The notes beneath the pieces were generated by a model, which saw only the letters and a list, made by a program, of their open reading frames with translations, was not told where the DNA came from and did no database searches. Both the position numbers and the translations under genes were made by a program. A stretch of DNA of 37,110 bases from Candidatus Caldarchaeum subterraneum (lineage in GTDB: Archaea > Thermoproteota > Nitrososphaeria_A > Caldarchaeales > Caldarchaeaceae): positions 1-37,110 of the forward strand of contig CALHAG010000022.1 in the NCBI GenBank assembly GCA_937934305.1. The letters are read 5' to 3'. Of the stretch, positions 234 through 18,608 are shown in pieces; within the stretch, counting starts at the first letter, position 1, and each line of letters starts with the position of its first letter.

Positions 234-414
234 GCCGCGGGCCTGTAGAAACTGCAGAAGAATAGTTGTGGGAAAAACCTGTGATGTGTGCGGGTCCTCG
301 AACCTAAGCACCAGCTACTCTGGGCTTGTGATAATCCTCGACGTGGAGAACTCTGAGATTGCGAAAGAGCTTGGGATAAGGAAATCGGGAAGATACGCGG
401 TCAAAGTTGACTAG
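223..414 (+). CDS. spt4: Transcription elongation factor Spt4 (RpoE'')
   Basis: Spt4 pairs with Spt5 (NusG homologue) on the RNA polymerase clamp to keep elongation processive. The 63-residue product has the expected zinc ribbon: CRNC near the N-terminus (residues 8-11) and CDVC at 20-23, followed by the short Spt5-binding half with SGLVIILDVENSEIAKELG, and length fits the family. The start is GTG inside the end of rpo7; the next gene begins within its last bases at 407. The tight overlap with rpo7 and the dephospho-CoA kinase gene suggests one transcript. Confidence 0.9.
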   Translation: MSAKPRACRNCRRIVVGKTCDVCGSSNLSTSYSGLVIILDVENSEIAKELGIRKSGRYAVKVD

Positions 415-913
415 CATCTGGAGCCGCCCCATAGTCTTCACGGAGGAAATGAAGAACCGTGTACGTAAACCTTTGGGGGAGCTGAGGCACGGAGACCTAG
501 ACTATTCTCCGGAACTGGCTGATGCCAAGCCGCTTGTCGTTGTTGGAGACTACACCTACAAACGGATGATTGAAGCAAACTTGAGACCTGATGTTGTGGT
601 CGTGGATGCGAGGGTTATGAGAAACTCGGCAGAGATACCGAAGCTCGAGGGATACGAGGTGACACGTGTTAGAAACATGGCTGGAGTCATAGAGCCCGAG
701 GCTGCTGAGGCCGTGATAAATGCCGTAAGCAGAGGTCGTGGCGCTGTCTTTGTAGAGGGGGAGGAAGACCTGTTAGCTCTGCCAGCTATTCACGCTCTTC
801 CCGAAGGAGGGGTGGTTGTTTATGGCCAGCCGAGGCAGGGATACGTTGTTGTGAAAGCCTCGACAAAAGTGAAAAAACTTGTGGAGGAAATTATATCGAT
901 GGCTACTGTTTGA
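407..913 (+). CDS. GTP-dependent dephospho-CoA kinase (DUF359 family)
   Basis: The product (168 aa) belongs to the archaeal DUF359 family, shown in Thermococcus to phosphorylate dephospho-CoA with GTP, the last step of CoA synthesis. Recognisable motifs are VVVGDYTYKRM (residues 44-54), RPDVVVVDARVMRN, the acidic EGEEDLLALPAI and the VVYGQP strand-turn near the C-terminus. It starts with TTG or a nearby codon inside the end of spt4, so it is translationally linked to the rpo7-spt4 genes; this gene order is common in Archaea. Its last 11 bases overlap the convergent S27ae gene. Confidence 0.85.
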   Translation: MTSIWSRPIVFTEEMKNRVRKPLGELRHGDLDYSPELADAKPLVVVGDYTYKRMIEANLRPDVVVVDARVMRNSAEIPKLEGYEVTRVRNMAGVIEPEAAEAVINAVSRGRGAVFVEGEEDLLALPAIHALPEGGVVVYGQPRQGYVVVKASTKVKKLVEEIISMATV

Positions 914-1061
914 ACTTGGTGTAGCCACATTTCCCGCATGTATATCTGTTGCCGTGGTCTGCCATGAAGTATCCAACACCACATCGGGGGCATGAGACCA
1001 ACGTCTTCTCAAGCCTTCCATCCTTCAAAACATATCTTTTCCACAGCCCTTGTTCGGTCAT
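903..1061 (-). CDS. rps27ae: Small ribosomal subunit protein S27ae (eS31)
   Basis: This 52-residue protein is read from ATG at 1061 to TAG at 903. Its sequence carries a four-cysteine zinc ribbon, CPRCGVGYFMADH followed by CGKCGY, with the GLWKRYVLKDG lead typical of archaeal S27ae, where the protein is free rather than fused to ubiquitin. It is a small-subunit protein near the decoding region. The ATG overlaps the TGA of S24e by 4 nt, showing translational coupling in the S6e-S24e-S27ae operon. The 3' end runs 11 bases into the convergent dephospho-CoA kinase gene. Confidence 0.92.
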   Translation of the reverse strand: MTEQGLWKRYVLKDGRLEKTLVSCPRCGVGYFMADHGNRYTCGKCGYTKFKQ

Positions 1062-1357
1062 TTCTTCGGCCTCTCCGCGAGCTTGTTTCTGACAAGTATG
1101 TAAAGTGGCTCAAAAACCTTAACGTCTTCCACTCTGTTGTAGACATTTGCGTAAACATCTACGAGTCTTGAGCCTGTGCGGTAGACGATTTTCCTAACAA
1201 CCACTCTAGCGGGGTCTACGTTGAGATGAGCCGCTATCAATTGCTTGGCCTCGTCTCGGGTAATGGGCTTGGTGAATGAAATTTTCGCAATCACCTCACG
1301 ACGTCCCACCAGCTTGTTTTCCACAAGCTTGGAGTCAACCAGCGACATCTTGCTCAC
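1058..1357 (-). CDS. rps24e: Small ribosomal subunit protein S24e
   Basis: The 99-residue protein matches archaeal S24e: KLVENKLVGRREVIAKISF near the N-terminus, then TRDEAKQLIAAHLNVDP and the VVVRKIVYRTGSRLVDVYANVY core. It is a small-subunit protein. Two in-frame ATG codons are possible, 1357 and 1348; I keep the longer. The start overlaps the end of S6e by about 23 nt and its stop overlaps the S27ae start by 4 nt, so the three genes form one tight operon on the minus strand. Confidence 0.93.
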   Translation of the reverse strand: MSKMSLVDSKLVENKLVGRREVIAKISFTKPITRDEAKQLIAAHLNVDPARVVVRKIVYRTGSRLVDVYANVYNRVEDVKVFEPLYILVRNKLAERPKK

Positions 1358-1760
1358 CTTTCTTGATGAGGACGGCGTTTATCTGAGCTATTGCCTCGCT
1401 GATGGTGTCGCCTCTGACTGTGACGCGTTTCCTCAAACCTTTCACCAGCCTTCTCGCCCGCTTCTTCTTCCTCTTCGATGGGGGCTTACGCCGTGGATGG
1501 AACCCGGGGCCGCCGGAGAGCAAAACCTTAACTTTCCTAGGGCCCGAAACATCGGGGCGCATAGGGAAACCGTCTTTGTCAGAACCACCAGTTATTTTTA
1601 TCAAGTATCCCTTATAGCCGAAAACTCCGCCGTCAACAGTTTCTCCAATCCTCTTACCTATCAAAAGCGTAAACTGCTGAGGGGTGAGCTGTATAGTTGA
1701 TGCTTTTTTCTGGACGGGGTCTGACAAAACCATCCGAGGGCCAGCGGCTTGCTGCGACAT
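1335..1760 (-). CDS. rps6e: Small ribosomal subunit protein S6e
   Basis: The 141-residue product is the archaeal S6e: VLSDPVQKKA at the N-terminus, GKRIGETVDGGVFGYKGY, the GGSDKDGFPMRPDVSGPRK block, and a basic stretch with RRKPPSKRKKKRAR before VRGDTISEAIAQIN. S6e lies at the foot of the small subunit. ATG 1760 lies about 30 nt downstream of a TATA element within the end of infB, which fits a leaderless mRNA. It is first in the S6e-S24e-S27ae operon. Confidence 0.95.
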   Translation of the reverse strand: MSQQAAGPRMVLSDPVQKKASTIQLTPQQFTLLIGKRIGETVDGGVFGYKGYLIKITGGSDKDGFPMRPDVSGPRKVKVLLSGGPGFHPRRKPPSKRKKKRARRLVKGLRKRVTVRGDTISEAIAQINAVLIKKGEQDVAG

Positions 1761-1783
1761 CTAAACACCTTCGCCTATGCTCA

Positions 1784-1794
1784 GCAATTTAAAC
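1784..1794 (-). promoter_or_regulatory. TATA promoter of the S6e-S24e-S27ae operon
   Basis: Read on the minus strand, GTTTAAATTGC is centred about 30 nt before the S6e ATG, the spacing expected for a TATA box driving a leaderless transcript. It sits just past the infB stop, partly in the 39-base gap. Inferred from sequence and spacing only. Confidence 0.55.
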
Positions 1795-1799
1795 ATGAG

Positions 1800-4046
1800 C
1801 TACCTCGCCCACAAAGGGTTTTTGACACGCATTATCTCGACATATTCTTCTAAGGCTTTGAGCGCATGTGGCTCCAGCATGGCTGCGTAGGTTGTGAGAA
1901 GCTGTCGGGCGTCTCTCTCTGGGACGGCCACGTAAAGCTCCTCGTCGCCGTGAATTGTGCGGCCGACTACTGCGTCTCTTATGGAGACAGCCACCTTCAT
2001 CCCCTCTTTGGCGAGGCTTATCGCCTGCCCTCTGTCCTGTATCTGGGAAAGCAGGCCCACGGTTTTCCCAGCTTTGTTGACCAACTGGACACCGGGACGA
2101 ACCTCGCCCGCAACAACCTCCACACCCACAATCGCCGGCTCACTTCGCCTGAAAATAAAGTCCTTGAGTATCTTTATCTTTCCCGGCTTTACCAGCGACT
2201 CGAACTCAGCCGCCTGTCTCGCCCTGATGGTGTCGGCGACCCACTTCTCATAATCCTCGAGTAGACGGAAGAGTACGTCGTTTTTGAAGATGCGCACACC
2301 CTTTGACTGGGCTTCGTGCTCGAGCTCGGGGTCGACCCTCACTCCATAGGCGAGGATGACGCCGAGTAGTTCATCCTTCTGGCGAACAACGTGAGCCTCC
2401 ACCACGTCACGTTTAGAGACATCTCCTATGTCGGCCAACCGAATTAATACCCCTTTTTCACGGAGATAGTTAACCGCGGCCTCGAGTGTTCCAAGCGCAT
2501 CAGCCTTTACAACCACGCCAATCTTGTCAGTTGAGAGAATAAACTCCTGAGCCTCCTCAGCAACCCGTCTAAGGTCCTCCTCCTCGTTTTTCACGGCCAA
2601 GATGGGTGAGCCGGCCACCGCTTCCTCAAGCATTTCTGCAACCATTTTAACACCCGCGGCCGCTGAGATTTGGCTGATGCTTTTCAGCCTGTCCCGTGGG
2701 TCGCGTATCTCGTCGAGAGGCTTGGGTAGCAGCAGCGCCTTGACCCTCGACGTTGATGGGCCTCTGCGTGTGAGGAAAGCAACCTTATCGCCGACCCTTA
2801 AAGTTCCTGTGTGGATTAGGATGTTAGCTGTGGCTCCGAAGCCCTCTTCCTCGACTATTTCGAGAATGACGCCTTCACATCGGTCGTCTTTTTTCATGAG
2901 ACGCTGTTTCATGAATTGCTGAGCGAGTCCGAGGAGAAGCAGGAGAAGGTCGGGTATGCCTTCGCCTGTCTTGGCGCTCACGGGAACAATGGCAACCGTG
3001 TCTGTGAATGACCTTATCCGTGTGTAGAGGTCGGACCTGAAACCTAGGAAGCTTAGCTCCCCCATCAAGTTGTATATCCTGTTGTCAAGGTCTTCGGCGA
3101 CTGTTTTATGCTGGTTGTTGTAGGTTTTTATGAATGGGGCGTTGGGCGTCGGCTTCCATCCGGTTATCATGTCGATTTTGTTGGCGGCTACCACGAAGGG
3201 CGTTTTTCTGGAACGAAGCAGTTGAATGCTTTCCCTCGTCTGCTCCTGAACACCCTTCATAACATCGACGACCAGTATCGCCATGTCGGCGACAGAGCCT
3301 CCGCGTTTTCTGAGGTTTGAGAAAGCTGCGTGGCCTGGTGTATCGATGAAGAGGATGCCTGGAATCTCCAGCTTGACTTTGAGCTCGCCCAGCAGCTGTC
3401 GACATGTTTCCTCTATGGCTTTTATCGGGAATATCGTGGCTCCGATGTGCTGTGTTATGCCGCCCGCTTCTCTAGCGGCCACGAGGGTTCCCCGCATCTT
3501 GTCCAGTAGAGAGGTGTTGTGAAGTATGATTTCTTGGGCTTCGTAGAAATGTGTCGGCGGGACCGTGAAGTCATACACGTAAGGGTAGCTTGGTTTAGCT
3601 TGTTCAAGATTTTCCACCGCTACGGATGCGACTTGGTTATTTCTCAAGCTCAATACCCTGTCTCCCGGCTTAAGACTATCTGCTCTGGTGAAAATGTAGA
3701 GTGAGTTGGTGAGAGCTTTTGCGTAGGGGTGTTCGGGTGTTGTCTCCACAGTTTCCCCGTTCGAGAAATGTATGCGGGTAACGGTCTTGGGTGCTTGACG
3801 CCTCCAGAGCAGCACCGCCTCCGCCTCGTTATTCCCGGTCAAGGTCGCGAGGCGAGGTTTCTTAGCCGGCTCCACAGCCACCCCATCAGAAACAGGATAG
3901 ACTTCACCTCTCCAGCTATATTTTCTGAAGATCTTCTCCGCAGAGACGTAGCCCTCACCGGCTTCGTGTATAAGTGTCCATGGGGCCACGCATTTTCCAT
4001 GGTCTACATGGCCCAGAACAACAACTATCGGCTCTCGGTAGCTCAT
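1800..4046 (-). CDS. infB: Translation initiation factor aIF5B (IF2-like GTPase) with in-frame mini-intein
   Basis: aIF5B is the GTPase that promotes ribosomal subunit joining. The 748-residue precursor is 589 residues without its intein (residues 19-177), the normal aIF5B size. Extein landmarks: GHVDHGK (12-18) joined after splicing to TSLLDKMRGT, giving a complete G1 P-loop; GGITQHIGAT (switch I region); DTPGHAAFSNLR (G3); ANKID (G4); SAKTGEGIP (G5); then the beta-barrel and C-terminal IF2-type domains. The intein separates Lys18 from the Mg2+-binding Thr, so unspliced protein should not bind GTP properly. ATG 4046 is about 25 nt from a TATA half of the divergent promoter shared with kae1. 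Confidence 0.96.
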   Translation of the reverse strand: MSYREPIVVVLGHVDHGKCVAPWTLIHEAGEGYVSAEKIFRKYSWRGEVYPVSDGVAVEPAKKPRLATLTGNNEAEAVLLWRRQAPKTVTRIHFSNGETVETTPEHPYAKALTNSLYIFTRADSLKPGDRVLSLRNNQVASVAVENLEQAKPSYPYVYDFTVPPTHFYEAQEIILHNTSLLDKMRGTLVAAREAGGITQHIGATIFPIKAIEETCRQLLGELKVKLEIPGILFIDTPGHAAFSNLRKRGGSVADMAILVVDVMKGVQEQTRESIQLLRSRKTPFVVAANKIDMITGWKPTPNAPFIKTYNNQHKTVAEDLDNRIYNLMGELSFLGFRSDLYTRIRSFTDTVAIVPVSAKTGEGIPDLLLLLLGLAQQFMKQRLMKKDDRCEGVILEIVEEEGFGATANILIHTGTLRVGDKVAFLTRRGPSTSRVKALLLPKPLDEIRDPRDRLKSISQISAAAGVKMVAEMLEEAVAGSPILAVKNEEEDLRRVAEEAQEFILSTDKIGVVVKADALGTLEAAVNYLREKGVLIRLADIGDVSKRDVVEAHVVRQKDELLGVILAYGVRVDPELEHEAQSKGVRIFKNDVLFRLLEDYEKWVADTIRARQAAEFESLVKPGKIKILKDFIFRRSEPAIVGVEVVAGEVRPGVQLVNKAGKTVGLLSQIQDRGQAISLAKEGMKVAVSIRDAVVGRTIHGDEELYVAVPERDARQLLTTYAAMLEPHALKALEEYVEIMRVKNPLWAR
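3516..3992 (-). other. Mini-intein (159 aa) inserted in the aIF5B P-loop
   Basis: The insert begins with Cys (CVAPWTLIHE, block A) right after GHVDHGK and ends IILHN, the block G His-Asn pair, followed by Thr as the +1 nucleophile. Block B is visible as VETTPEHPYA, with the TxxH motif, and block F as YVYDFTVPPTHFYEAQ. No LAGLIDADG endonuclease blocks fit in 159 residues, so it is a splicing-only mini-intein that has lost, or never had, homing capacity. Inteins at this GHVDHGK/T site of aIF2/aIF5B are known in other Archaea. All catalytic splicing residues seen are intact, so it should be active. Confidence 0.95.
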
Positions 4047-4106: not shown

Positions 4107-5087
4107 TTGACGATTGTTTTAGGCATCGAGTCCACGGCTCACACCTTCGGAGTTGGCGTGGCCACTGACGAGGGTAAAATACTTGCGAACATCCAGAAAA
4201 TCTACAGACCTGCAAAAGGCGGAATACATCCACGTGAAGCGGCTCAGCATCATGCAGCCAAAGCGGCTGAAGCCTTGGAAGAAGCCTTCAAAACAGCAGG
4301 AATAAAGCCCAGCGATATTGACGCGGTGGCTTTTTCCCAAGGCCCTGGCATGGGTCCTTGCCTCCGCACAGGAGCGACTGTGGCGAGGACGATTGCAACA
4401 GTTCTTGGAAAACCTTTAATCGGCGTCAACCATGGAATAGCTCACATAGAGATTGGTAAGCTTGTGACAGGATGCGGAGACCCTGTTGTGCTCTATGTTG
4501 CCGGCGGCAACACTCTGATAACGGCTCTTATAAACAAGAGGTATAGGATTTTAGGTGAAACACTTGACATCGCCGCGGGAAACTGTCTAGACTCATTTGG
4601 TATAACTGCTGGAATAGGGCCTATGCCAGCACCTGAGATTAAGGCAGGCGAAGGCGACACTATCTACGAGCTGCCTTACAGGGTCAAGGGGATGGATGTC
4701 TCCTTCTCTGGGATACTGACAGCTGCGGAGAAGCTGCTGCAGCAGGGGAAGCCTATTCCGAATGTCTGCCTATCTTTGACTGAGACGGTTTACAGCATGC
4801 TGACCGAGGTGACCGAGAGAGCTTTAGCTATGCTTGATAGAAGTTCTCTTCTTCTCGTCGGGGGGCTGGCGAGAAGCAGACGCTTGTATAACATGCTTGA
4901 AACCATGTGCAGAGACCGTGGGGCCCGTGTCTACGTTGTTCCCGATGAATACGCGGGCGACAACGGTGCGATGATTGCGTGGACGGGTCTGCTTATGCTA
5001 AGATGCGGAGCAACGCTTCCCGTTGAACAGAGCCACGTGAAGCCTCGGATGAGGATTGACGAGGTGGAAGCATGCTGGAGCAGCTAG
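4107..5087 (+). CDS. kae1: KEOPS subunit Kae1, tRNA threonylcarbamoyladenosine transferase
   Basis: Kae1 (TsaD/Qri7 family) transfers the threonylcarbamoyl group to A37 of ANN-decoding tRNAs within KEOPS. The 326-residue protein starts GIESTAHTFGVGVA, has GGIHPREAAQHHA, the metal-binding NHGIAHIE (two His), the ASKHA elements YVAGGNTLI, TLDIAAGNCLD, PYRVKGMDVSFSG, and ends with EYAGDNGAMIAWTG. The start is TTG at 4107, predicted leaderless from the upstream TATA. The next gene, bud32, overlaps its end by 16 nt; in some Archaea the two are fused. The PMPAPEI segment replaces the PGGPK form seen in euryarchaeal Kae1, but that stretch varies among TACK Archaea. Confidence 0.95.
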   Translation: MTIVLGIESTAHTFGVGVATDEGKILANIQKIYRPAKGGIHPREAAQHHAAKAAEALEEAFKTAGIKPSDIDAVAFSQGPGMGPCLRTGATVARTIATVLGKPLIGVNHGIAHIEIGKLVTGCGDPVVLYVAGGNTLITALINKRYRILGETLDIAAGNCLDSFGITAGIGPMPAPEIKAGEGDTIYELPYRVKGMDVSFSGILTAAEKLLQQGKPIPNVCLSLTETVYSMLTEVTERALAMLDRSSLLLVGGLARSRRLYNMLETMCRDRGARVYVVPDEYAGDNGAMIAWTGLLMLRCGATLPVEQSHVKPRMRIDEVEACWSS

Positions 5088-5716
5088 ATTTCCTTGAAAA
5101 CAGGGTCATCAGAGTCGGCGCCGAGGCGGTCATAAAGGAGATTAGCTGGAAAGGTCTGAGACTTGTCGCAAAACATCGTGTTCCAAAACGCTATAGAACA
5201 GCTGAGATTGATGAGAGAGTTAGGAGAAGCCGCACACTTCACGAGGCCAAAATACTTTGGCATCTATCCGAGAACGGGCAGCCCGTTCCACTTGTTCTCT
5301 TCATAGACCTCGCGAACAGCATCATTTACATGCAGTTTTTAGAGGGGGTTGAGCTCCGAAGTCACCAGTCCCCTCTGAGGTATGCTGAAAGGCTTGGAGA
5401 AATTGTGGCCTCGATGCATAGCATGGACGTCGTTCATGGTGACCTGACTCTTGCAAACATCTTAGCGGGGGAGGATACGGGGCTGTGGCTTGTTGACTTC
5501 GGCCTCAGCGCTTTCAACGCAGACCTCGAGGAGAAAGCTGTCGACATCCATCTACTTGAACGCTCGGCGGCAAGCGCCTTCCCCGACAAGTCTCGAGAGT
5601 TCATGCACCTGTTTCTACGTGGATACAGCAGAGTTGTAGGCCGTGAAAAAACCTCCGAAATCCTTGAGAAAGTGAAGGAGATTAGGAGCAGAGGCCGCTA
5701 CGTTGTCCGTGGATAG
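5072..5716 (+). CDS. bud32: KEOPS subunit Bud32, small atypical kinase/ATPase
   Basis: Bud32 is the compact kinase-fold ATPase that switches Kae1 activity in the KEOPS complex. The 214-residue product has the reduced kinase plan: a glycine-poor start, the ATP-binding lysine in LVAKHRVPKRYR, the helix Glu in LHEAKILWHL, the catalytic loop HGDLTLANIL (residues 124-133) and the VDFGLS metal-binding motif. No activation segment or large C-lobe is present, which is normal for Bud32. It starts at ATG 5072 inside kae1 and ends 14 nt inside the next gene, so all are cotranscribed. Confidence 0.95.
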   Translation: MLEQLDFLENRVIRVGAEAVIKEISWKGLRLVAKHRVPKRYRTAEIDERVRRSRTLHEAKILWHLSENGQPVPLVLFIDLANSIIYMQFLEGVELRSHQSPLRYAERLGEIVASMHSMDVVHGDLTLANILAGEDTGLWLVDFGLSAFNADLEEKAVDIHLLERSAASAFPDKSREFMHLFLRGYSRVVGREKTSEILEKVKEIRSRGRYVVRG

Positions 5717-15542: not shown

Positions 15543-16658
15543 TCAGCCAAACATTTCACGAGCCATCGCCGCACCTCTCACGAGGCTGAGCTGCTTTTGG
15601 TAAGCCACATCCCAGCTACGGGTGCGTAGGCCGCAGTCGTTGCAGGCCACGACTTTACCCGGGTCTCCCAAAACCTTCGCAGCGTAAAGAGCCCTATCCC
15701 GAACAAGCTCAGGAGGCTCGACAAAATCTGTGTGGACGTCGACAAGCCCTGGAGCCACTCTAAAGCTTACATCATACTCTTTGAAGACCTTGAGAACCTC
15801 GAACCCTGGTCTCGCATCGGGGTCGGTGCCGAGTCTTGTGGTGTCGGCGTTGGAGCACGAGATTGAGAGAACGTCTATCTTAAGCTCGAGTAATGCGGGG
15901 AATAGTGCCTTGTAATCGGTGTAACAGATGTGTACGGCTTTCTTTGCTCTTATGCCTTGGAAAGTTTCGTTGATGCTTTCAACCACGAGCTCCGACTCAT
16001 GGGGTTTAGTGGCAGCCGCAGGTTCATCCAACTGTATATAATCAACTCCTTCGCTGTCAAGCGCCTTGACAACAGGCCTCAACACCTCTTCCACGAGGTC
16101 GAGAACAAAGTCCCTTCTCCCAGCATTTGCTCTAGCCGCCAAATCTTCCCCCGTTGCATGTTTTGAGTAATATTCATCAAAGGACCAATCGGCGAGTGTA
16201 TAGGCTGAGGTGACTGGAACTTTCAAAGGCTTTTTCGCATGTTTCTTGTTGAATCTCAGCTCGTCCATGTGATAGGGCTGGATGAGCCTTGGCCTTTTTA
16301 CCACAGCGGCCTTGCGGTAGAATTCGTTGTCCCAAACCCTTACCACACCACGGTACTCGAAGCCCTCGATGTATCTCAGCGGATGCTCATACATCTCAAC
16401 CCTTCTCTGCTCACCATCATATACAACATCCAGTCCAGCGGACTCGAAAAATCTAAGTCCATAGATACAAGCCCAATCAACCAACAAATCCTCAGAGACC
16501 TGTCTATTTCTGAGCAGTTCAACCAATTCTTCATAGTTCTCCACATCAAGAGCCTTTCCCCATTTCTCCGCCTGCTCAACAGCTCTAGCCAAGTCCTTGA
16601 CCCTGAACGGCGCCTTGTTGAGGCTTCCAACCTCCATAACAGGAAACAGTTTACTCAT
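15543..16658 (-). CDS. metE: Methionine synthase, catalytic (MetE C-terminal type) protein
   Basis: The 371-residue protein corresponds to the C-terminal barrel of cobalamin-independent methionine synthase, which methylates homocysteine. It shows HPLRYIEGFEYRGVVRVWDN, the SAYTLADWSFDEYY part, EGVDYIQLDEPAAATKPHES, HICYTDY (His and Cys zinc ligands) and CNDCGLRTR (the last zinc Cys). The usual Glu ligand position (VITIEN in the E. coli type) reads SISCSN here. In Archaea lacking the N-terminal half such core MetE proteins use methylcobamide or folate donors; the neighbouring gene supplies an N-terminal-like partner. Its start overlaps that gene's stop by four bases. Confidence 0.9.
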   Translation of the reverse strand: MSKLFPVMEVGSLNKAPFRVKDLARAVEQAEKWGKALDVENYEELVELLRNRQVSEDLLVDWACIYGLRFFESAGLDVVYDGEQRRVEMYEHPLRYIEGFEYRGVVRVWDNEFYRKAAVVKRPRLIQPYHMDELRFNKKHAKKPLKVPVTSAYTLADWSFDEYYSKHATGEDLAARANAGRRDFVLDLVEEVLRPVVKALDSEGVDYIQLDEPAAATKPHESELVVESINETFQGIRAKKAVHICYTDYKALFPALLELKIDVLSISCSNADTTRLGTDPDARPGFEVLKVFKEYDVSFRVAPGLVDVHTDFVEPPELVRDRALYAAKVLGDPGKVVACNDCGLRTRSWDVAYQKQLSLVRGAAMAREMFG

Positions 16659-17602
16659 AGCGACTCACCAGACAGCTTCACGACCTCGCCTAACACCTCA
16701 ATCTTCTTTAAAGCGTATTCATGTGGAAGATGCTCAAGCTCACAGTTCGGCCCTATGTGCAGCTCTCCGAAACTCGCCATCGAGGCCACTTTCTTCATTA
16801 AGGAGACCGTGGCAGCGGCGTCTTCGAGCAATGTGTTTCTTCCGTCGACAAATCCGAGGAAAATACACTTATCCGTCTCCAGTCCACGCAAGCATTCAAC
16901 CCTTGTCTTAAACATGTCCAAGCCAATCACATCAACCGGGAAATCCAGAAAATTGTCGAGGTTCTTCTCCGCTGAACCGAACTGTAAATGGAGCATAAGC
17001 TCCGCGTCAACTGTTTTCCTCAAAACCTCGACGGCTGAGCGAGACAATTCCAAATCCTCTGAAGAAACCTTACCAGAAACGAGATAAGCCGCCGTCAGCT
17101 GAACCTGCGCAAATTCCCCCAATTGTCTAAGATAATGGGCCAAAGCCTGGGCAATATCGTAAACGAGGTCATCCAATCTACTGTAGAATTTGTTGAATGA
17201 GAGTTTTGCGAAGGTGAGCGGCTCGGGGACAACAATCTTTCTCTTCTCGGTCTCGATGAATTGGTGGAAAAAAGGGGATGTATCGATTCTGTTTCGGAGG
17301 CTGAGCTTGCCTGTGATAACTGGTGCTTTGTAGAAAAAGTTGTTGTCAAACCATCGGCTCAAACCGTTGACCACGACGTTTTCAAGAGATGATGCAAACG
17401 GTCTGAGGAGGTCGTTCCAGCCAAGCATCCCGTCTATGATGTAGGCGAAGCCGTTTCGCCGCTGAACCTCGATATAGGCGCGGGAGGTGGACTCCAGCTC
17501 ACTGAGAAGAGCTGTGTCTGATATCTTGTTCTTGGCTCTATCCCTATAGGCTTTTATGAGCTTCTCTGTGCGGGGCAGAGCGCCCACTAGATATGCCTTC
17601 AT
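16655..17602 (-). CDS. MetE N-terminal-domain-like protein (split methionine synthase partner)
   Basis: This 315-residue protein resembles the N-terminal barrel of MetE: MKAYLVGALPRTEKLIKAYRD, YIIDGMLGWNDLLRPFASSL, RWFDNNFFYKAPVITGKL and EPLTFAKLSFNKFYSRLDDL. It lacks the zinc site that the catalytic gene downstream carries. Split MetE halves encoded side by side are known in Crenarchaeota. I start at ATG 17602 rather than upstream, because homologues begin near this and the extension is basic and unlike MetE. The stop overlaps the catalytic gene's start, so the two are translated together and probably work together. Confidence 0.78.
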   Translation of the reverse strand: MKAYLVGALPRTEKLIKAYRDRAKNKISDTALLSELESTSRAYIEVQRRNGFAYIIDGMLGWNDLLRPFASSLENVVVNGLSRWFDNNFFYKAPVITGKLSLRNRIDTSPFFHQFIETEKRKIVVPEPLTFAKLSFNKFYSRLDDLVYDIAQALAHYLRQLGEFAQVQLTAAYLVSGKVSSEDLELSRSAVEVLRKTVDAELMLHLQFGSAEKNLDNFLDFPVDVIGLDMFKTRVECLRGLETDKCIFLGFVDGRNTLLEDAAATVSLMKKVASMASFGELHIGPNCELEHLPHEYALKKIEVLGEVVKLSGESL

Positions 17603-17603
17603 G

Positions 17604-18608
17604 CTACATCCTTCTCTCGGAGCTATGGCCTGGGAAGTAGCCTGCCTTCGGGTCCACGTAGTTTTTGGCAACGTTTACCGCTATGGCTGCCTGCGCAAAC
17701 CCTATCACGAGAAGAGCCAGCTTAACGGAGTCAGGCTGGGTTGCGATGTCTCCAGCGGCGTATACCCCTGGGATGTTAGTCTCGCATCGGGCGTTGATTT
17801 TAATGGCGTTGCCCTCCATCTCGAGGCCCCATTTCTTGAAAAGCGAGACATCGACTATGTGACCTAGCTGGAGCAGTAGTGCATCGCATTCTATTGTCAT
17901 CTCCTCGCCGGTCTTGTTGTTGTAGACCGTTACCTTCTCCAAGTGTTCGCCACCATGTGCTTCCTTGACCTCATAAGGTATCAAGACTTTGACAGGCGAG
18001 TGGAATAGCTCTATGACGGTCCCCTCATGTGCTCTGAATTCGCTGCGTCTATGAACAAGGTAAACCTCAGACGCGATGTCTTTGAGATTGAGGGCCCAGT
18101 CGACAGCAGAGTCACCGCCTCCGACAATAACCACCCGCTTGTTCCTAAACATCCACTTGTCCTTGACCGTGTAGTAGACGCCCTTGTTCTCAAACCGTTC
18201 AACCGAGGGGTTCCCGAGTTTACGGGGTGTAAACGCACCATGTCCAGCGGCTATGAGAACGGTTTTGGAGAAGTGGACACCTTTATCAGTAATCAGCTCG
18301 ATTATTCCGCCGTCAAGCCTCGTCAGGTTAAGAACCTTCTCCGAGAAATGGAAAGTCGGGTTGTATGCGCTCGCCTGTTCATACAAATTTTTCGCCAAGT
18401 CTTTGGACAGAATCTTCGGAAAACCGGCGACGTCGTAGATGAATTTATCGGGGTAAAGGGTTGTTAATTGTCCGCCATAGGTGTCCAGAGCCTCAATCAC
18501 CTTCGTTTTCATACCCCTCATACCAGCGGCGTAGAAGGCCGCGAACAGGCCAGTGGGTCCGGCGCCGATGATGGTGATGTCGTAAACATCAAAAGGCTCC
18601 ATGGTCAT
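17604..18608 (-). CDS. Thioredoxin-reductase-like ferredoxin-NADP+ reductase
   Basis: The 334-residue flavoprotein has the FAD motif IIGAGPTGLFAAFYAAG, EALDTYGGQLTTLYPD, the NADPH-binding VVIVGGGDSAVDWAL and the second FAD motif VYAAGDIATQPDSVKLA, ending with FPGHSS. It lacks the CxxC redox pair of true thioredoxin reductase, and the GHSS tail is that of TrxR-like FNR (YumC type), so ferredoxin-NADP+ exchange is the likely role. ATG 18608 is about 26 nt from a TATA element; TTG 18614 or ATG 18602 are alternatives. One base separates its stop from the MetE-partner start. Confidence 0.88.
   Translation of the reverse strand: MTMEPFDVYDITIIGAGPTGLFAAFYAAGMRGMKTKVIEALDTYGGQLTTLYPDKFIYDVAGFPKILSKDLAKNLYEQASAYNPTFHFSEKVLNLTRLDGGIIELITDKGVHFSKTVLIAAGHGAFTPRKLGNPSVERFENKGVYYTVKDKWMFRNKRVVIVGGGDSAVDWALNLKDIASEVYLVHRRSEFRAHEGTVIELFHSPVKVLIPYEVKEAHGGEHLEKVTVYNNKTGEEMTIECDALLLQLGHIVDVSLFKKWGLEMEGNAIKINARCETNIPGVYAAGDIATQPDSVKLALLVIGFAQAAIAVNVAKNYVDPKAGYFPGHSSERRM

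Follow-up and report, generated by a model that had tools for sequence, protein, structure and literature searches.

A predicted class 1 mini-intein in the P-loop of aIF5B from Candidatus Caldarchaeum, with indications of vertical inheritance after endonuclease loss

The aIF5B (archaeal IF-2, infB) gene in a 37,110-nucleotide stretch of Candidatus Caldarchaeum subterraneum DNA, referred to here as the window, carries an insert that is very probably a class 1 mini-intein at a known insertion site in the P-loop of this protein, and splicing is predicted from conserved residues, family models and a fold model. Comparison with relatives indicates a single acquisition, loss of the homing endonuclease (HEN) and subsequent vertical inheritance without homing as the simplest history, and the intein appears to be under purifying selection, though of far lower strength than that acting on the host protein. 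A literature search, extending to few subscription journals, returned no description of an aIF5B intein in Caldarchaeum or Aigarchaeota.

Results

The assembly that holds the window comprises 1.56 Mb in 30 contigs and is 97% complete. The 748-codon frame on the minus strand at 1800-4046, which opens with MSYREPIVVVLGHVDHGK, scored 732 bits against the aIF-2 model TIGR00491, and NF011418 and NF003078 were also above their cut-offs (Table 1). With the insert removed, the sequence aligns without a gap across the junction to solved archaeal aIF5B (5fg3, E 2.4e-175; also 1g7r), and the aIF5B of relatives with an empty site aligns to the joined extein halves, again with no gap at the junction. A genome search found aIF5B to be single-copy; the sole other match was a weak, distant GTPase-domain similarity and was rejected as a second copy. 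Divergent from the aIF5B gene lies the gene for Kae1 (326 aa, TTG start), which overlaps a separate Bud32 kinase gene (4107-5716), and farther along, at 15543-17671 on the minus strand, two methionine-synthase-like (MetE-type) frames adjoin and overlap.

Table 1. Features of the aIF5B precursor gene and its intein in the window
Feature	Position	Strand	Basis
aIF5B (archaeal IF-2, infB) precursor gene, 748 aa; predicted 589 aa spliced	1800..4046	-	TIGR00491, NF011418, NF003078, 5fg3
N-extein, 18 aa, ends GHVDHGK (P-loop up to Lys)	3993..4046	-	
Predicted class 1 mini-intein, 159 aa, Cys1 to Asn159	3516..3992	-	Family models, fold model, five-allele comparison
Block A, catalytic Cys1	3990..3992	-	Invariant in five alleles
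Block B, T85-P-E-H88 (TxxH)	3729..3740	-	Invariant in five alleles
Tight turn between strands E112-117 and E120-132, position of a would-be endonuclease domain	3633..3644	-	AF2 secondary structure, RadAmin 4e2u alignment
Block F, VYDFTVPPTHFYEA (D141, H148)	3537..3578	-	Both residues invariant in five alleles
Block G, His158-Asn159	3516..3521	-	Invariant in five alleles
C-extein from Thr+1 (TSLLDKMRG, P-loop Thr) through the rest of aIF5B and stop codon	1800..3515	-	

The insert corresponds to precursor residues 19-177 (3516-3992, minus strand); it reads CVAPWTLIH...VYDFTVPPTHFYEAQEIILHN, is followed by TSLLDKMRG, and separates GHVDHGK from T, placing the Walker A Lys and Thr 159 residues apart. 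Both the Pfam model PF14890 Intein_splicing (36.1 bits, cut-off 35.8) and the NCBIfam model TIGR01445 intein_Nterm (30.8 bits, cut-off 24.5) matched it. A phmmer search with the insert matched the PabCDC21-1 intein (1e-9) and Pho RadA inteins, and among solved structures it is closest to two Pyrococcus P-loop mini-inteins, those of CDC21 and RadA. An AlphaFold2 model built from four alleles has a HINT fold with a mean pLDDT of 87.7, and inteins head the list of structures that Foldseek returned for it (6rpp, E 2.5e-12, TM 0.88; then 6rpq, 4e2t and 4e2u). Across the five alleles described below, C1, T85-P-E-H88, D141, H148, H158 and N159 are all invariant and every allele ends HN/T (the slash marks the splice junction), although identity to the window intein drops to 37%. 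Judged on these sequences, a chance occurrence of the insert anatomy is ruled out. A preliminary description of this DNA had placed a mini-intein at 3516-3992, and the splicing blocks, intein models and HINT fold agree with it down to the exact coordinates; it had also named a mutated terminal Asn among relatives as a sign against splicing, and both N159 and H158 are kept in all five alleles.

The same description held that the insert has no endonuclease, which its 159-aa length agrees with. A family-model search of the insert found no match to a homing-endonuclease family at E≤1, and the AF2 structure contains no HEN remnant, having a two-residue turn where the HEN would sit; this stretch aligns gap-free to RadAmin (4e2u).

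We searched 100 relatives for aIF5B inteins and found mini-inteins of 159-162 aa at the same junction in all three other Candidatus Caldarchaeum genomes sampled (G001-G003), as in that of the window (G000), and in a member of another genus of the family, the sister genus (G005, Archaeon HR01). Named records exist for three of these inteins (Candidatus Caldarchaeum SKYG24 and SKYG59, and Archaeon HR01). Counted over the 42 genomes of the order with an aIF5B gene, five carry the intein, 36 have an empty site and in one (G040) the gene is ended by the contig end. GHVDHGKT is uninterrupted in three genomes of the same family (G004, G006 and G007) as well as in other members of the order. A check of close relatives for empty or HEN-bearing alleles, suggested in the preliminary description, yielded 36 empty members of the order, and no HEN-bearing ancestral allele of this lineage was found among the Caldarchaeales genomes sampled. 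Longer aIF5B frames in G004, G061, G076 and G094 were considered as extra inteins and rejected, as their P-loops are uninterrupted and the added length consists of upstream open-frame extensions. A viral origin was also considered, and a whole-protein scan of viral contigs returned nothing.

The five carriers group as a single clade in the aIF5B tree (support 100/99), with the three empty members of the family as its sister group. The intein tree, built from 171 columns and with moderate support, has the order G005,(G001,(G003,(G000,G002))), which is also the extein order; these columns do not place the root of the aIF5B inteins. Rates were compared in the closest pair of carriers, G000 and G002, where intein and extein have dS values of 0.275 and 0.335 (Fisher p 0.46) and dN values of 0.086 and 0.011, respectively, the latter corresponding to a nonsynonymous rate about 8 times that of the extein. 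The resulting dN/dS is 0.31 for the intein (synonymous/nonsynonymous p 1e-4) and 0.03 for the extein.

A profile of the five alleles was scanned against 85,000 species genomes, and four further archaeal aIF5B genes proved to have inteins at GHVDHGK/T, in agreement with the earlier statement that other archaeal aIF2/5B proteins are interrupted at this exact site. Two Pacearchaeota (L037, L038) have same-junction inteins of 524 aa with the intact LAGLIDADG motifs GCIAGDGH and AGLIDTDG; a member of the Desulfurococcales (L040) has one of 358 aa, with a LAGLIDADG profile score of 30 bits and no intact motif; and that of a member of the Micrarchaeota (L035) is cut by a contig end. All four share GHVDHGK or AHVDHGK/C, and the complete ones end HN/T before the same C-extein. 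At GHVDHGK/T, inteins are also known from the IF-2 of Methanocaldococcus and Thermococcales. NF011418 is a 1049-aa IF-2 model, and its match to the window protein starts within the intein and runs unbroken into the C-extein, which is what an intein at GHVDHGK/T would produce. A grouping of the window-type inteins with the other aIF5B inteins is compatible with the 171 columns but not singled out by them (AU p 0.16), and an EF-2 intein (L036) falls among them in the tree.

Inteins in other hosts were also recorded. The EF-2 P-loop inteins (L036, L039, L042, L043, L044) include HEN-bearing forms of 539 aa in Bathyarchaeota and a HEN-less form of 170 aa in Diapherotrites, the latter lying near the aIF5B inteins in the tree, possibly owing to a jump between paralogous GTPases. 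HEN-less inteins of 157-162 aa in the Smc P-loop (GRNGSGK/S; L061-L064, L069, L077, L088) were present in seven genomes of one genus (g20, family f10); they are distant relatives of the aIF5B intein and constitute a second genus-wide P-loop mini-intein in the phylum. The genome of the window itself (G000, contig C5, ~350-3240; L058/L068) has a second intein in the 964-aa frame of an RtcB-like protein, split as YDIN/CLPGG...SN/CGVRLM and containing the LAGLIDADG-like motifs YFTGDGA and AGLFGAE. In addition, adjacent archaeal ATP synthase A- and B-subunit genes (L067, G036:C1) have one intein each, of 521 aa at FGTGK/T in the A subunit and at TNMTNY/C in the B subunit, and large inteins in RNA polymerase A'' of Aenigmatarchaeota (L041, L049, L053, L054) end HN/TMRTYHFAGTAG or HN/TMRSYT.

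Discussion

The conserved residues and the fold suggest that the HINT domain would excise itself after translation, through an N-S acyl shift at Cys1, transesterification to Thr+1, cyclisation of Asn159 assisted by His158, and a final O-N shift. Excision would restore GHVDHGKT and with it active aIF5B. Because the Walker A Lys and Thr are split, the precursor would be inactive, and we strongly infer that, unspliced, it is unable to bind GTP. The reading in which the intein cannot splice and the protein works as the 748-aa precursor has virtually no chance of being correct, given that it would have to accommodate a P-loop with its Lys and Thr separated by 159 residues in a single-copy gene, along with purifying selection on the intein and catalytic residues that are invariant in five species.

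A homing intein would have invaded aIF5B no later than in the last ancestor shared by Caldarchaeum and the HR01 lineage, and the HEN-bearing relatives at the same site suggest that a LAGLIDADG domain was then lost; inheritance would have been vertical since, as the trees and dS support. One acquisition and vertical descent are favored because the carriers form a single clade, the trees are congruent and dS is equal; an earlier gain, in the ancestor of the family, followed by loss from the sister clade is less simple, as it costs one extra step. Homing or gene transfer in recent times would fit the existence of HEN-bearing aIF5B inteins in other archaea, but in that case neither the equal dS of intein and extein in a close pair nor the confinement of carriers to one clade with matching branching orders would be expected, and we consider a recent arrival extremely unlikely.

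The intein was probably kept because aIF5B is essential and precise deletion is rare: the host needs the spliced protein, and nothing short of an exact in-frame deletion would rid the gene of the intein. The preliminary description had claimed that the splicing module is retained even without homing, and this claim gains from the single clade, the dN/dS of 0.31 with extein-equal dS and the invariant catalytic residues. That selection on host function preserves splicing once the HEN is gone is the usual explanation within the homing cycle (PMC8966425), so the retention argument is not new; it is a textbook idea to which the trees and dN/dS values now lend support.

It had also been proposed that cold or redox sensitivity of splicing could tune translation initiation, and the analysis gave this part no support. 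Cys1 is the only cysteine of the window intein, the N-extein has none, and the additional intein cysteines of relatives are at non-conserved positions. No conserved Cys partner near the splice site that could trap Cys1 was found, and disulfide-based redox regulation was rejected for want of such a partner. Temperature-activated splicing of P. horikoshii RadA in native exteins needs a vestigial endonuclease loop as its hinge (PMC5790916); in the alignment and AF2 model of the window intein, this flexible hinge loop is absent, with the two-residue turn in its place. A domesticated post-translational switch, in which cold, oxidation or another signal slows splicing and thereby gates translation initiation, would fit the long vertical, HEN-less retention in an essential factor and the conditional splicing of a structural relative, the P-loop RadA mini-intein of Pyrococcus (PMC5790916). 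However, besides the missing cysteines and hinge, nonsynonymous evolution about 8-fold faster than in the extein gives no sign of conserved regulatory surfaces, and simple essentiality explains the retention, making a switch very unlikely. There is likewise only a slim chance that the intein was recruited as a gate that keeps aIF5B inactive until conditions favor splicing, through intein-extein contacts invisible in sequence. Nothing in the alleles or the models points to conditional splicing, and no regulatory role appears to be needed.

The other aIF5B P-loop inteins share host gene, site, Cys1/Thr+1 chemistry and N- and C-terminal splicing blocks with the window intein, but they bear a LAGLIDADG domain that is intact in those of 524 aa and degenerate in that of 358 aa, or are truncated by a contig end (L035), whereas the window intein has no such domain. 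The Pyrococcus CDC21-1 mini-inteins (6rpp, 6rpq) are likewise HEN-less, located in a P-loop and ~164 residues long, and are its best fold match (TM 0.88) and best PDB sequence match; they differ in having an MCM host and 22-25% identity. The P. horikoshii RadA mini-intein (4e2t, 4e2u) is also a HEN-less P-loop intein with the same fold, but an 11-residue flexible loop is needed for its thermoregulated splicing, in contrast to the two-residue turn here. P-loop inteins of aEF-2 (L036, L039, L042-L044) and Smc (genus g20) have the same Cys1...HN/[TS] anatomy, and the aEF-2 site HVDHGK/T is homologous to that of aIF5B, although the hosts are different and the EF-2 versions mostly bear a HEN.

In conclusion, the intein described here is a clear-cut but unexceptional example of a phenomenon already known and leaves the understanding of inteins unchanged. 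The homing cycle has active, decaying and lost stages (PMC8966425), and intact HENs in Pacearchaeota, a degenerate one in Desulfurococcales and the absence of one in Caldarchaeum would fit such a series. Small inteins derived from hot springs may be a source for protein engineering. Five alleles, together with counterparts at this codon junction that bear a HEN or are losing it, make up a concise series through the homing cycle, and those of the Caldarchaeum set gauge how a splicing-only intein would evolve under vertical descent, at ~8 times the nonsynonymous rate of its host and with frozen catalytic residues.
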